In this document: positions 2,168 to 10,001 of the stretch, piece by piece
How positions within the stretch are numbered: the stretch's first letter is position 1
Layout: every line of letters begins with the position of its first letter
Translations under genes and position numbers: made by a program
The notes under the pieces: generated by a model
The model's database searches: none
The model's input: only the letters and a program-made list of their open reading frames with translations
Told to the model about the DNA's origin: nothing
Origin: a virus
DNA: 26,824 bases
IMG/VR virus record: IMGVR_UViG_3300043775_002347
Location: 1 to 26,824 of that record
Reading direction: 5' to 3' (one strand)

Positions 2168-3040
2168 ATGATAAAGCTAAAAGATTTACTAAACGAAGAA
2201 AAACCAGGTTTATGGGCAAACATTAGAGCTAAAAAAGCTAGAGGTGAAAAACCTGCACATGGTAACTCTGATGCACATAAAGATGCAGTTAAAGCAGCTA
2301 AAAAAATAAACAAAGAAGAATCGGTAGTTGAAGGATTGTATCATATAGGATATAATAAAGGTAGAGGACAGGGTACGGGAGTTTTTAAAGATTCTTATTC
2401 ATCGTATAAAGATGCTAAGAAAGCAGTAGAAAAACTTGAAAAGGAAAGAGGTGGTTCGTATAATCAGATTGCTTATTATGTAGCCGATAAAGATGGGAAG
2501 TTTGTAAATGAATCCGATTTAAAAGGATACCTTGTTGGAGATGTAGTAGATGATATTATCAAATCAATTGGAACTCGTTTCGTAAGTGGTGAAATCAAAC
2601 AAAGTAATAAAAATAAAATCTACTTAAAACTAAAGGATGTAAAATTCGGTAGTGGTGTTGTAAAAATGTTAAAATCACAATTTGGAATTGATGCTAAAGA
2701 AGAAATGTTCGGTGGGAAAGATAAGTTTGGTTCAATACCATCAGTATCATTTTTTGCGAATAAAGTAGTTAGTGAAGCAAAAGCACCTTACGAAGTATAT
2801 CACAAATCATATACATCAGCTATTGAAGCAGCTAGAGAATATGCGGAGAAAAAAGGATTTGAAATAGATAATGATGATTCTTTCAGAAAAATAGGAATGG
2901 GACCTCGTAAACCATCAGAAGGTAAAACCAATAGTTTTAGCATACAATTATCTAAAGATGGTAAATTACAAAGAAAACAACTTCATATACAAGTCTATGG
3001 TATGAAGAATTCTTACGAACTAAATGCATATATCGGGTAA
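2168..3040 (+). CDS. Candidate internal head protein with capsid-targeting leader
   Basis: A 290-residue basic protein starting MIKLKDLLNE|E. T4 internal proteins and Alt carry an N-terminal capsid-targeting sequence of about ten residues, which the gp21 prohead protease cuts after Leu/Ile-X-Glu; here L-N-E ends exactly at residue 10. The next gene has nearly the same leader. Residues 14-47 are Lys/Ala-rich (LWANIRAKKARGEKPA), suited to contact with packaged DNA. Two later segments (about 57-95 and 203-235) share a YxxY...A..xAxEYAEKKG-like helical pattern and may be small repeated folds. No enzymatic motif is recognised. If the leader reading is right, the protein is packaged in the head, trimmed there and delivered with the DNA. 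Confidence 0.7.
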   Translation: MIKLKDLLNEEKPGLWANIRAKKARGEKPAHGNSDAHKDAVKAAKKINKEESVVEGLYHIGYNKGRGQGTGVFKDSYSSYKDAKKAVEKLEKERGGSYNQIAYYVADKDGKFVNESDLKGYLVGDVVDDIIKSIGTRFVSGEIKQSNKNKIYLKLKDVKFGSGVVKMLKSQFGIDAKEEMFGGKDKFGSIPSVSFFANKVVSEAKAPYEVYHKSYTSAIEAAREYAEKKGFEIDNDDSFRKIGMGPRKPSEGKTNSFSIQLSKDGKLQRKQLHIQVYGMKNSYELNAYIG

Positions 3041-3043
3041 TAA

Positions 3044-3592
3044 ATGATTAAATTAAAATCACTTTTAAAAGAAGATATTACAACTACTATATTACTACAT
3101 ATAGCAGCAACTGCTGCTATTTGGGCAATTAAAAAGGCAATACTATCTTTTAGAGAAGGTTCTGTAAAAGAAAAAGAAGTTGGAAAATCATATATCAAAT
3201 GGTTAGATAGATTGGATAAAAATGATAAGTTTAATAAGTTTGTTTATTATACTTTGAAAAATGATAACAAACTAAAATCATTGCAATCTAAATCAAAAGA
3301 TGGTAAATTTGATTTTGAAACATTTGTTTATGAAAAATCATTAGTTAAAAAATGGTTGACAAGTAAGCCGGCAGAAAGCGAGTTGGAAAAAGTATTTAAA
3401 GATTTATATCCATCCAAAGATAAAAATTCAAAAGATATACCAGGTGATAACAATTTAGAACTTACCTATCCACAATGGAAATTGGGTACATTAAATAAAG
3501 CGGTTGAAGAATTTACAAATGTTTTAAAAAGTGGACATGTAAAAGGTTTTATTAATCAATACGCTCAAAAGCAAGGACTGGAAACCATATAA
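3044..3592 (+). CDS. Candidate internal head protein with capsid-targeting leader and hydrophobic helix
   Basis: A 182-residue protein starting MIKLKSLLKE|D, matching the leader of the gene before it at 8 of 10 positions and ending in L-K-E as prohead-protease sites do. Directly after the putative cut comes a hydrophobic helix (about residues 12-35, TTTILLHIAATAAIWAIKKA), followed by a soluble Lys-rich helical region with no recognised motif. Cleavage would leave the hydrophobic helix near the new N-terminus, which would suit a membrane-active ejected protein; that part is speculative. It begins after a TAATAA double stop and lies between two other candidate head-packaged genes. Confidence 0.7.
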   Translation: MIKLKSLLKEDITTTILLHIAATAAIWAIKKAILSFREGSVKEKEVGKSYIKWLDRLDKNDKFNKFVYYTLKNDNKLKSLQSKSKDGKFDFETFVYEKSLVKKWLTSKPAESELEKVFKDLYPSKDKNSKDIPGDNNLELTYPQWKLGTLNKAVEEFTNVLKSGHVKGFINQYAQKQGLETI

Positions 3593-3602
3593 TTTCAAAT
3601 TG

Positions 3603-4418
3603 ATGAAACTTTTAGAATGTATTATCGTATCCAAAGAAATAAACGATAAATTCATACTTGCAAAAAATAGAGATAGGGGATATAATCCTGAATTAGAAAT
3701 TGTTCATGAAATAATTGATGGAGTAGAAGTTGTGTATTTGCATGATATTCTGACCGATTGGTGTGAGGGTATGAATGAGTATGGTTTAGGCGTAGTTAAT
3801 TCGGCCTTGTTAGTTGGTTACGATGAAGCAGAAGGTAAGCTCGTTAAAAAAATGAGAGGGTATGGTGATGATGGTAAAAAAATGAAAAGCATTTTTTCAA
3901 AAAAAACTTTAAAAGAAGCAATTAAAGCTTGTATGATATGGAATGGTAATAATAAAAAAGGATTATCAGGACACACATTTATTTCAACACCAATGCAAAT
4001 GGTTAGCATTGAAAACATTCCAAATTTAAAACCTGAAATAAAGTTGTGTAATACAGAAAAGCCGATTGTTAGAACAAATCATGGACATGTTTATATAGGC
4101 GCAGGATATACCGATGGTAAAAAATATCTAAGTTCAAAAATGCGAAAGATATCGGCTGAGAAATCCGTTGATAAGGTGGAAGACTGGAAGGAAATTGCGG
4201 ATGCTATGAGAAAGGAGTACTTTCCAAATAAACCTTCATTGAATATGAAAAGAGATACTGAAAAAATGTCTACTTCTTCTCAAACGGTAATGAATCTGAC
4301 AGACCGTATATTACAAATAACTTACTTTAAGAACAAAGTAAAGGAATTCAAAGGTATTAACAATAAACTACCCAAAGAATACCAGCCTAAGATTACAATC
4401 GAAGTAATCGAAATTTAA
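3603..4418 (+). CDS. Ntn-hydrolase, choloylglycine hydrolase / acyltransferase-like
   Basis: The start is ATG 3603 (a TTG one codon upstream adds nothing), giving 271 residues. The pattern is that of N-terminal-nucleophile amidohydrolases of the choloylglycine hydrolase/penicillin acylase type: a Cys near the start (C6), AKNRDRG about 16 residues later (N22, R23, D24), a GMNEYGLGVVNS segment, and RTNHGH (N159) in the position of the conserved Asn. In this family the Cys must become the N-terminal residue and acts as both base and nucleophile on a linear amide bond. Here it follows MKLLE, so removal of five residues would activate the enzyme. Leu-Leu-Glu before Cys resembles a prohead-protease site, and the two preceding genes carry similar leaders. 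The substrate cannot be told from the sequence. Confidence 0.75.
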   Translation: MKLLECIIVSKEINDKFILAKNRDRGYNPELEIVHEIIDGVEVVYLHDILTDWCEGMNEYGLGVVNSALLVGYDEAEGKLVKKMRGYGDDGKKMKSIFSKKTLKEAIKACMIWNGNNKKGLSGHTFISTPMQMVSIENIPNLKPEIKLCNTEKPIVRTNHGHVYIGAGYTDGKKYLSSKMRKISAEKSVDKVEDWKEIADAMRKEYFPNKPSLNMKRDTEKMSTSSQTVMNLTDRILQITYFKNKVKEFKGINNKLPKEYQPKITIEVIEI

Positions 4419-6681: not shown

Positions 6682-7974
6682 ATGTCTTGGGCATTGTTTA
6701 AAAACAATATATTAAAATACGCAAATAATCCTAATAGTTTGCCTGATTTGAATAAGGTAGCAAAACTTTGGACTACTGAATATGATGCTGCTATAAAAAG
6801 AGGGTATGATACGGTTAATTTTGTAAAAGTAAAACAAGGAAACACCAAATTGATGGAAGAACTTGTTTACGCTGCTTTACTAAAAGGACAAAGTTCAAAA
6901 CAACCTTATGATTTAGTAGGAGAATTAGGAAAAGCAGTTCAGGCGTATTGGACCGGCGCGGTATTAAATGAAACACCGATACCAATAATACCTGCACCTG
7001 GAACAATAGCTAATATAGCGGTTACATCAAATGTTGTAATAAATATTGGAACATGGACTCCTCCACAACAATCGCCTACTCCTCCTCAAACGGATAGACC
7101 AGATTTAAAAGAAGATTTTGAAAAATACAAAGAAACTGTTAAAACATTTGATGAAATATTTAGAACAACCGTAATAGTTTATGATAATAGACAACCAACT
7201 CCAACGCAAATTATACAAAGTGTTATTGATTATAAGAGAGAGTTAGAGGTTGAAAATCCGGGTGATTCTGGTACATCAGATGCGGCACCGGATGAGGAAG
7301 AAGAACAAAAACCTAAACCAAAAATTTCACCTATAAGAGGGGATAAGAAATTATACGATGTGGTTGGGGGTCTATGGCCTGCTTTAGGGGAGTATGGTAA
7401 TTTTGAAGTAGATATAGCAAGTACTAAAAAACAAGCGTGGTATAAAAATAAAGGAACTAAGGCGTTCCCGCTAACAAAAATGCCCGAAACCTCAACCGAG
7501 ATAAATGAATATTTACAAAAATCCGGAGGTAAAGGTGTTCGGGTTTGGTATAAAGTAAATCCTGAATATCTTCGAAAAAATTGCGATAAAGTACTTATAC
7601 CAACTGCATCCGGAGATGTTACATTTGTAGTTCATAAACAATTAAAAACATTAGTTGACCCGGTTTTTAAAAAAATTAAAGAGAAAGGATTGCAAAAATA
7701 TATATTAAACTGCGGCGGTGGAATTGCTATTAGAAATGTTACCGATGGTTTAAGATTATCAAACCATAGTTGGGGCTTGGCGATTGACCTAAATACTGAA
7801 ATATATCCTATTAAAACGAAATTTGGAGCAGATGGTATATATTCGGGCAAAAAGAAGGTTAGAGATTTTAATGATTTTGATTTAGGATTTATTAAAGTTA
7901 CAAAACTATTCACAGATGCAGGTTTAACTTGGTTAAAAAGTTTTGACCCAATGCACGTATCAATATATGAATAA
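6682..7974 (+). CDS. Tail-associated peptidoglycan peptidase, M15 (VanY/DacB-like) family
   Basis: A 430-residue protein. Residues 1-130 resemble a conserved N-terminal module of phage tail-associated proteins (EYDAAIKRG, AYWTGAVL, PIPIIPAPGTIANI). Pro-rich and acidic linkers follow (about 130-215), then a C-terminal zinc peptidase. The M15 signature is clear: SNHSWGLAID gives H362 and D369, and DPMH gives D422 and H425, with the last His ligand close to the C-terminus as usual. M15 enzymes cut peptide cross-links or stems of peptidoglycan (D-Ala-D-Ala or L-Ala-D-Glu bonds). No signal peptide is seen. Lying behind a spike that lacks a lysozyme domain, it probably opens the wall during infection; a lysis endolysin role is the alternative. 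Confidence 0.8.
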   Translation: MSWALFKNNILKYANNPNSLPDLNKVAKLWTTEYDAAIKRGYDTVNFVKVKQGNTKLMEELVYAALLKGQSSKQPYDLVGELGKAVQAYWTGAVLNETPIPIIPAPGTIANIAVTSNVVINIGTWTPPQQSPTPPQTDRPDLKEDFEKYKETVKTFDEIFRTTVIVYDNRQPTPTQIIQSVIDYKRELEVENPGDSGTSDAAPDEEEEQKPKPKISPIRGDKKLYDVVGGLWPALGEYGNFEVDIASTKKQAWYKNKGTKAFPLTKMPETSTEINEYLQKSGGKGVRVWYKVNPEYLRKNCDKVLIPTASGDVTFVVHKQLKTLVDPVFKKIKEKGLQKYILNCGGGIAIRNVTDGLRLSNHSWGLAIDLNTEIYPIKTKFGADGIYSGKKKVRDFNDFDLGFIKVTKLFTDAGLTWLKSFDPMHVSIYE

Positions 7975-9081: not shown

Positions 9082-9579
9082 ATGAATACGGACAAATTAT
9101 TAAAAGCCATTCAGATTCTTATTAAAGAGGAGCTTAAAGAGCAATTACCCGCTTTAATTAAAGAAGGTGTGAAGGCTGAGATGAAAAAGATGTTGGCAGA
9201 GAGTAAACAACCTGCTAAACCAAAAACTACTGGATTATCAATGGCTAAGGCTATGTTAGATGATGATATTATCGAAGAATCGGTATCTACAAACGTATCT
9301 TCTCAGAAACAATTCAGTAAAAACCCAATGATTAATCAAATTCTTAATGAAACACGTGGTGGGCTTCCACAAGGTGATGGTGGTTTTAGAACAATGAACT
9401 TTGGACAAGGTGATATGGGTTCACTTGTAGGTAGAACGGCGATAGCTGAAAAAATGGGTTATGGTGATTTAGCGAAAGGACCTTCTCCAACTGGATTGGG
9501 TGTAAATACCGGAGTAGCTGAATTGGATAAAGCTTTTAACAGAGATTATTCGGAATTAGTAAAGAGATTTAAGAAATAA
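9082..9579 (+). CDS. Unknown protein upstream of gp25, probably virion-associated
   Basis: A 165-residue protein. The first 45 residues form an amphipathic, strongly charged helix (KAIQILIKEELKEQLPAL, KEGVKAEMKKML), likely a coiled coil. Residues 75-165 are Gly-rich with few predicted structures (GGLPQGDGG, MNFGQGDMGS), ending in a basic helix, ELVKRFKK. No catalytic motif is seen. It leads the wedge unit and overlaps the gp25 start by one base, so a role in baseplate assembly is likely. A short IKE|E near the N-terminus would also fit a prohead-protease site, but that motif is too common to use alone. Confidence 0.65.
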   Translation: MNTDKLLKAIQILIKEELKEQLPALIKEGVKAEMKKMLAESKQPAKPKTTGLSMAKAMLDDDIIEESVSTNVSSQKQFSKNPMINQILNETRGGLPQGDGGFRTMNFGQGDMGSLVGRTAIAEKMGYGDLAKGPSPTGLGVNTGVAELDKAFNRDYSELVKRFKK

Positions 9580-10001
9580 TGGCAATAGTACTTGGCAAAA
9601 AAAGAGTAATTGATACCGTAGAGTATAATGATTATGCTATCGGTATTACTTTGCCATTACAAATAGGAAATACAGCATTTAATCAATCTTTCACAACTTC
9701 GGACCAAATAAAAACAAATATAAAAAGTTTGTTACTAACAAAACGATATGAAAGAATAATGCAGCCAAATTTAGGAAGTGGACTTCAGGAATTGTTATTT
9801 GAACAAAATACCGAAGACCTACCTGATAGAATTGAAGAAAGAATAAATCAATCTTTAAGCAATTGGTTACCGTTTGTTACTATTGATACGATAGATATTA
9901 CTCAATCGGATGAACTAAAAGATAGTAATAGAGTTGAAGTTTCTATTAAATTTAGATTAAACGATACTCCTAAGTTGGAAACATTAACATTTACTGTTTA
10001 A
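9579..10001 (+). CDS. gp25: Baseplate wedge protein, gp25 family
   Basis: 140 residues, near the usual size of T4 gp25 (132). The signature region at about 55-95 reads RYERIMQPNLGSGLQELLFE with a following DRIEERINQSL helix, matching the conserved R...P.fGsgL...lFE pattern of the GPW/gp25 family. gp25 joins the wedge and contacts the inner end of the tail sheath, helping to trigger contraction. The neighbour downstream is gp6, the usual partner in contractile-tail gene clusters. The gene starts on the last base of the preceding stop. Confidence 0.92.
   Translation: MAIVLGKKRVIDTVEYNDYAIGITLPLQIGNTAFNQSFTTSDQIKTNIKSLLLTKRYERIMQPNLGSGLQELLFEQNTEDLPDRIEERINQSLSNWLPFVTIDTIDITQSDELKDSNRVEVSIKFRLNDTPKLETLTFTV

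Follow-up and report, generated by a model that had tools for sequence, protein, structure and literature searches.

Features of the locus

The window, meaning the whole stretch of DNA analysed here, is a 26.8 kb virus record (26,824 nt; IMG/VR IMGVR_UViG_3300043775_002347) in which myovirus tail genes are present, including one for a gp25-like baseplate protein. The gene considered here, for an Ntn-hydrolase-like proenzyme, and the features associated with it are listed in Table 1. The open reading frame is genuine and intact. Its product begins MKLLECIIVSKE, the longer N-terminal stretch being MKLLECIIVSKEINDKFILAKNRDR..., and there is an alternative TTG start at 3600, one codon upstream, which would add one Met and alter nothing else. 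The motifs named in the original prediction (C6, NRD at residues 22–24, GMNEYGL, and TNH with N159) are all at the positions given for them, and the two genes just upstream do carry the leaders ending in L-X-E that it described.

Table 1. Features of the Ntn-hydrolase-like gene and its upstream neighbours in the window (a slash marks the presumed cleavage point)
Feature	Position	Strand	Basis
Upstream gene, capsid-targeting-like leader MIKLKDLLNE/E (2168–2197)	2168..3040	+	Leader type recurs upstream in related loci
Upstream gene, capsid-targeting-like leader MIKLKSLLKE/D (3044–3073)	3044..3592	+	Leader type recurs upstream in related loci
Ntn-hydrolase-like proenzyme, 271 aa	3603..4418	+	ORF; NCBIfam C45_proenzyme E 2.3e-6 (below curated cut-off); AlphaFold2; Foldseek
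5-aa leader MKLLE; L-L-E fits gp21 motif L/I-X-E	3603..3617	+	Homologue conservation and published motif (PMC9026906)
Cys6, predicted N-terminal nucleophile once cleaved	3618..3620	+	Invariant; residue 2 in five leaderless homologues
N22-R23-D24, predicted active-site motif	3666..3674	+	Invariant in homologue alignment
T158-N159-H160, predicted oxyanion-hole motif	4074..4082	+	N159 and H160 invariant; putative role from family

Elsewhere in the window, positions 28–1473 encode a protein, retained upstream of the Ntn gene in related loci, that has long stretches of low complexity rich in Ala/Ser and in Glu/Lys. A protein with a C-terminal M15_4 peptidase domain is encoded amid the tail genes (6682–7974) and is probably a cell-wall enzyme.

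Fold and family of the enzyme

Pfam provides no confident name for the window protein. In NCBIfam it matches the C45 family (autoproteolytic acyltransferase/hydrolase) below the threshold, with a best E of 4.2e-12 across 36 members; the NF040521 score of 27.2 bits misses the cut-off of 85, and the PF03417 score of the enzyme of Chryseobacterium phage MA9V-1 is 22.3 against a cut-off of 23.2. In the member-by-member tables the match mostly opens near profile position ~100, which is consistent with the long C45 propeptide being missing in the phage family. Membership of this family in C45 is remote.

A model was built with AlphaFold2 from 36 diverse homologues (pLDDT 81, pTM 0.84) and supersedes an earlier, poor model from a shallow alignment (pLDDT 59). 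Residues 1–4 are floppy and of low confidence, and the first strand starts from residue 7, right after Cys6. The best Foldseek match in the PDB is the mature isopenicillin N acyltransferase (AAT) 2x1e (E 2.6e-7), followed by bile salt hydrolases and penicillin V acylase (PVA), with an archaeal Ntn-fold protein also among the best. The original prediction had called the product an Ntn hydrolase with its family residues kept, and had suggested comparison with the choloylglycine hydrolase and penicillin acylase folds; the matches returned are of just this kind, and the model has the alpha-beta-beta-alpha arrangement of the Ntn fold. The TM-scores are moderate, about 0.5–0.6, so that the similarity is at the level of the fold and is not close. 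When the PDB was searched by sequence, neither single proteins nor two alignments led to an Ntn structure; fold comparison alone gave one. No relative turned up in two scans of 84,980 bacterial and archaeal genomes, and the enzyme family has no PHROG match at E ≤ 0.001. C6, N22, R23, D24, N159, and H160 are invariant across the 36 diverse homologues. Given the predicted fold and these invariant residues, the assignment as an Ntn hydrolase is well supported. The fold suggests that the enzyme may hydrolyse an amide bond on an acylated small molecule or lipid.

The window copy lies on a long branch and has nine near-invariant residues changed. At 4017–4028 the TSKH of the family (residues 139–142) is IPNL, and five other near-invariant positions differ too. 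With dN/dS for the gene at about 0.08–0.12, indicating purifying selection, loss of function in this copy appears unlikely; given the changes, it may act on a different substrate from its relatives.

Residues preceding the cysteine

Scans of IMG/VR and a phage collection yielded 179 usable copies of the enzyme, representing 98 distinct proteins. Just two classes of sequence precede the Cys, [LI]-x-E in 93 distinct proteins and a bare Met in five. In T4 the cleavage motif of gp21 is L/I-X-E (PMC9026906), and this motif is directly before the Cys, at the presumed cut, in 93/93 of the distinct leader-bearing homologues. The leaders are 4–12 aa long, with P2 and P4 variable, as in MKLSE, MKLLE, MKLKE, MKLTE, MKITE, MINE, MLNE, MIKE, MAKILQE, MKRILTE, MGNKLTE, MKKDILINE, and MPQLFDRIILGE. 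Upstream in-frame open stretches were considered as possible fusion proteins and dropped, there being in-frame starts shortly before the motif in most members. One locus (L131) lacks an obvious start codon, and contig ends truncate a few members.

On a tree of the mature part, made by a quick method with some branches left open, the P1 Glu has no amino-acid changes despite at least 11 synonymous switches between GAA and GAG. P3 is only ever Leu or Ile (12 amino-acid changes, 23 codon changes), while P2 takes nine residues through at least 33 changes, and the Met-Cys state has changed at least 3 times. A fixed P1, a P3 limited to Leu or Ile, and a free P2 is the pattern to be expected of a recognition site, and as read from these sequences it is beyond chance. 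It had been stated at the outset that homologues without Glu or Leu before the Cys would refute the proposal. Glu is present in every leader-bearing member and Leu is replaced by Ile alone, which gp21 permits (PMC9026906), the exceptions being the leaderless Met-Cys forms.

In the five Met-Cys homologues the Cys is residue 2, the catalytic residues are the same as in the leader-bearing forms, and the gene is located away from the head cluster. The existence of these members means that the enzyme can do without a leader.

Head protease and head genes

Peptidase_S77, the T4 gp21-type protease, scored above the cut-off in 20/44 records searched (6/8, 8/22, and 6/14 by set). Many of the records without it are fragments, so its absence there is uninformative; it is encoded by many long relatives and by both MA9V phages. 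The window has no protease gene, being a fragment that ends short of those genes. Met-Cys enzymes also occur in phages carrying S77, so S77 alone is no predictor of a leader, and the leaderless form would seem to have been released from head control, rather than to belong to a phage that has lost its protease.

In the 266 kb contig G014, the Ntn gene, beginning MAKLLNE/C (L204:11420-12247), is between the S77 gene (9261–9860) and scaffold-like and Gp23 capsid genes. Between S77 and the Ntn gene there are also two genes with MK[KT]QNSYLIME/G leaders, and the Gp23 protein has, on our reading of its sequence, QLLDE/A at the place expected for capsid-protein cleavage. Among distinct predicted genes upstream of leader-bearing Ntn genes, 64/217 have [LI]xE near the N-terminus, against 10/217 in same-sized internal stretches, a count based on mechanical gene prediction and on related sequences that are not fully independent. 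Proteins of 938–1204 aa with an N-terminal L-G-E leader are also encoded beside head genes (L167:2021-5635, L168:2765-5581); the first has a cytidylyltransferase-like domain (PF01467) after its leader and may be a second head-packaged enzyme.

In a second phage lineage, the Chryseobacterium phages MA9V-1 and MA9V-2, the enzymes (40% identity) begin MTSANNNEFLNE/C and MTSADNNAFINE/C, respectively, their leaders ending FLNE/C and FINE/C. Among the head proteins of MA9V-1, that of the small gene 150 starts MKTFTCFINE/A and the Gp23-type capsid protein (gene 152) has SEFINE/A; the middle position of [LI]xE shows a 3.3-fold enrichment of Asn in the region read from this phage. The leader of the enzyme therefore appears to resemble the head cleavage sites of MA9V-1 itself, a resemblance that is suggestive and not a statistical test, since these are just two related phages. 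In MA9V-1 the head protease is one part of a 1347-aa protein (L209:14502-18545), which has a further match to a family of starvation-inducible regulators (Dps-like) and, with its 16 [LI]NE motifs, has the look of a polyprotein that processes itself.

Proposed activation of the enzyme

The computed support for activation by the head protease consists of the fold, the invariant nucleophile, the strict conservation of the motif, the presence of the protease in related phages, and the setting among head genes. From these we infer, with a probability of roughly two in three, a zymogen whose Cys nucleophile is exposed by the gp21-type prohead protease and which is packaged and delivered at infection, the cleavage, packaging, delivery, and substrate all being part of that inference. 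The leader MKLLE would block the alpha-amino group of Cys6 in the proenzyme, and cleavage by Peptidase_S77 after L-x-E would make Cys6 the N-terminal nucleophile. As gp21-type proteases act inside proheads, the precursor would probably enter the prohead core, along with its leader-bearing neighbours, and be matured there. The mature enzyme would be ejected with the DNA and, once in the next host cell, would cleave an amide bond in a small molecule or lipid. That activation is in trans within the capsid, with the enzyme gaining activity only once in the virion and arriving in working order at infection, is also favoured on balance, if with rather less assurance.

Exposure of the nucleophile by the prohead protease was the central claim of the original prediction, and it is partly borne out, in that the motif is kept, many long relatives encode S77, and a position of the gene within a head cluster does occur. 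Against it, the capsid targeting sequence of T4 has 10 residues, of which positions 4 and 7 are the targeting residues (PMC9026906), while some of the leaders here have just 4. Targeting residues would have little space in leaders of 4–5 aa, and T4-like targeting positions could be accommodated in the longer leaders alone.

The main rival to the head protease is that Cys6 removes the leader autocatalytically and the conserved residues before it serve self-cleavage, which we consider unlikely, although it is the textbook route. The known Ntn hydrolases are reviewed as self-activating (PMC9140057), PurF loses a short propeptide by self-cleavage (PMC7056826), and C45, which is the closest family with a name, is activated by autoproteolysis. 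Nor would Glu at P1 by itself tell a protease from autocatalysis, given the R-E-E that precedes the Cys in a plant PurF chain of the PDB. The propeptide of Bacillus subtilis PurF, which ends L-N-E-E, also speaks for the autocatalytic route. However, autocatalysis alone would leave unexplained both the Leu or Ile at P3 beside a free P2 and the match of the MA9V leaders to head cleavage sites of their own phage; Leu/Ile at P3 is not shared by the one plant PurF sequence examined, where P3 is Arg. The P3 restriction and the resemblance to head sites thus appear to favour a protease over self-cleavage, and the two could act together.

Far less probable is that the leader serves as a tag for capsid targeting and cleavage on a packaged protein with a structural or core-filling role, its Ntn chemistry being incidental or lost. 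No enzyme domain can be recognised in many of the neighbours that have similar leaders, and several near-invariant residues are altered in the window copy, but the predicted catalytic residues are invariant in the 36 diverse members and are retained in the leaderless forms away from the head cluster, and the Cys is always exactly at P1-prime. It is more improbable still that a host protease or aminopeptidase strips the short leader in the cytoplasm, with the enzyme acting during infection and not from the virion. The Met-Cys members presumably do depend on the host methionine aminopeptidase, as established biochemistry would have it, and a targeting signal like that of T4 would not fit into several of the leaders. 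Yet the leader fits the motif of the phage's own protease and the gene is located among leader-bearing genes, and we are aware of no host protease that is specific for L/I-x-E.

Activation by the head protease, if true, would be a new route for a class of enzymes described as self-activating (PMC9140057). Enzyme activity would be coupled to the assembly of the virion, and phages would be shown to be able to preload an armed small-molecule hydrolase. The occurrence of [LI]-x-E directly before a nucleophile would then serve as a sequence rule with which to search for other head-matured enzymes. No precedent for Ntn hydrolases in virions, or for zymogens activated by a prohead protease, was found in the titles and abstracts searched, among which few are from subscription journals, so that this counts as weak evidence of absence.

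Comparison with known systems

The C45/AAT proteins (NF040521, PF03417) have the same fold, a Cys nucleophile that has to become N-terminal, and a remote profile match to the phage enzymes. They differ in having an autoproteolytic propeptide of ~100 residues, where the phage family has 4–12 aa ending in L/I-x-E, and the phage members checked score below the C45 family cut-offs. The choloylglycine hydrolases and penicillin V acylases, which are high among the PDB fold matches, have the Ntn fold and Cys nucleophile in common with the phage enzymes, but are 9–14% identical to them in the fold alignments and have a different kind of leader. PurF likewise has a short propeptide, with Glu before the catalytic N-terminal Cys in the plant chain, but is self-cleaved, belongs to a different family, and has Arg at P3 in the one plant sequence. 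The internal proteins and Alt of T4, which are cut by gp21, likewise have a short N-terminal leader ending in L/I-X-E in S77-bearing phages (PMC9026906). In the phage enzyme, unlike in these, the predicted cut would create the catalytic residue itself.
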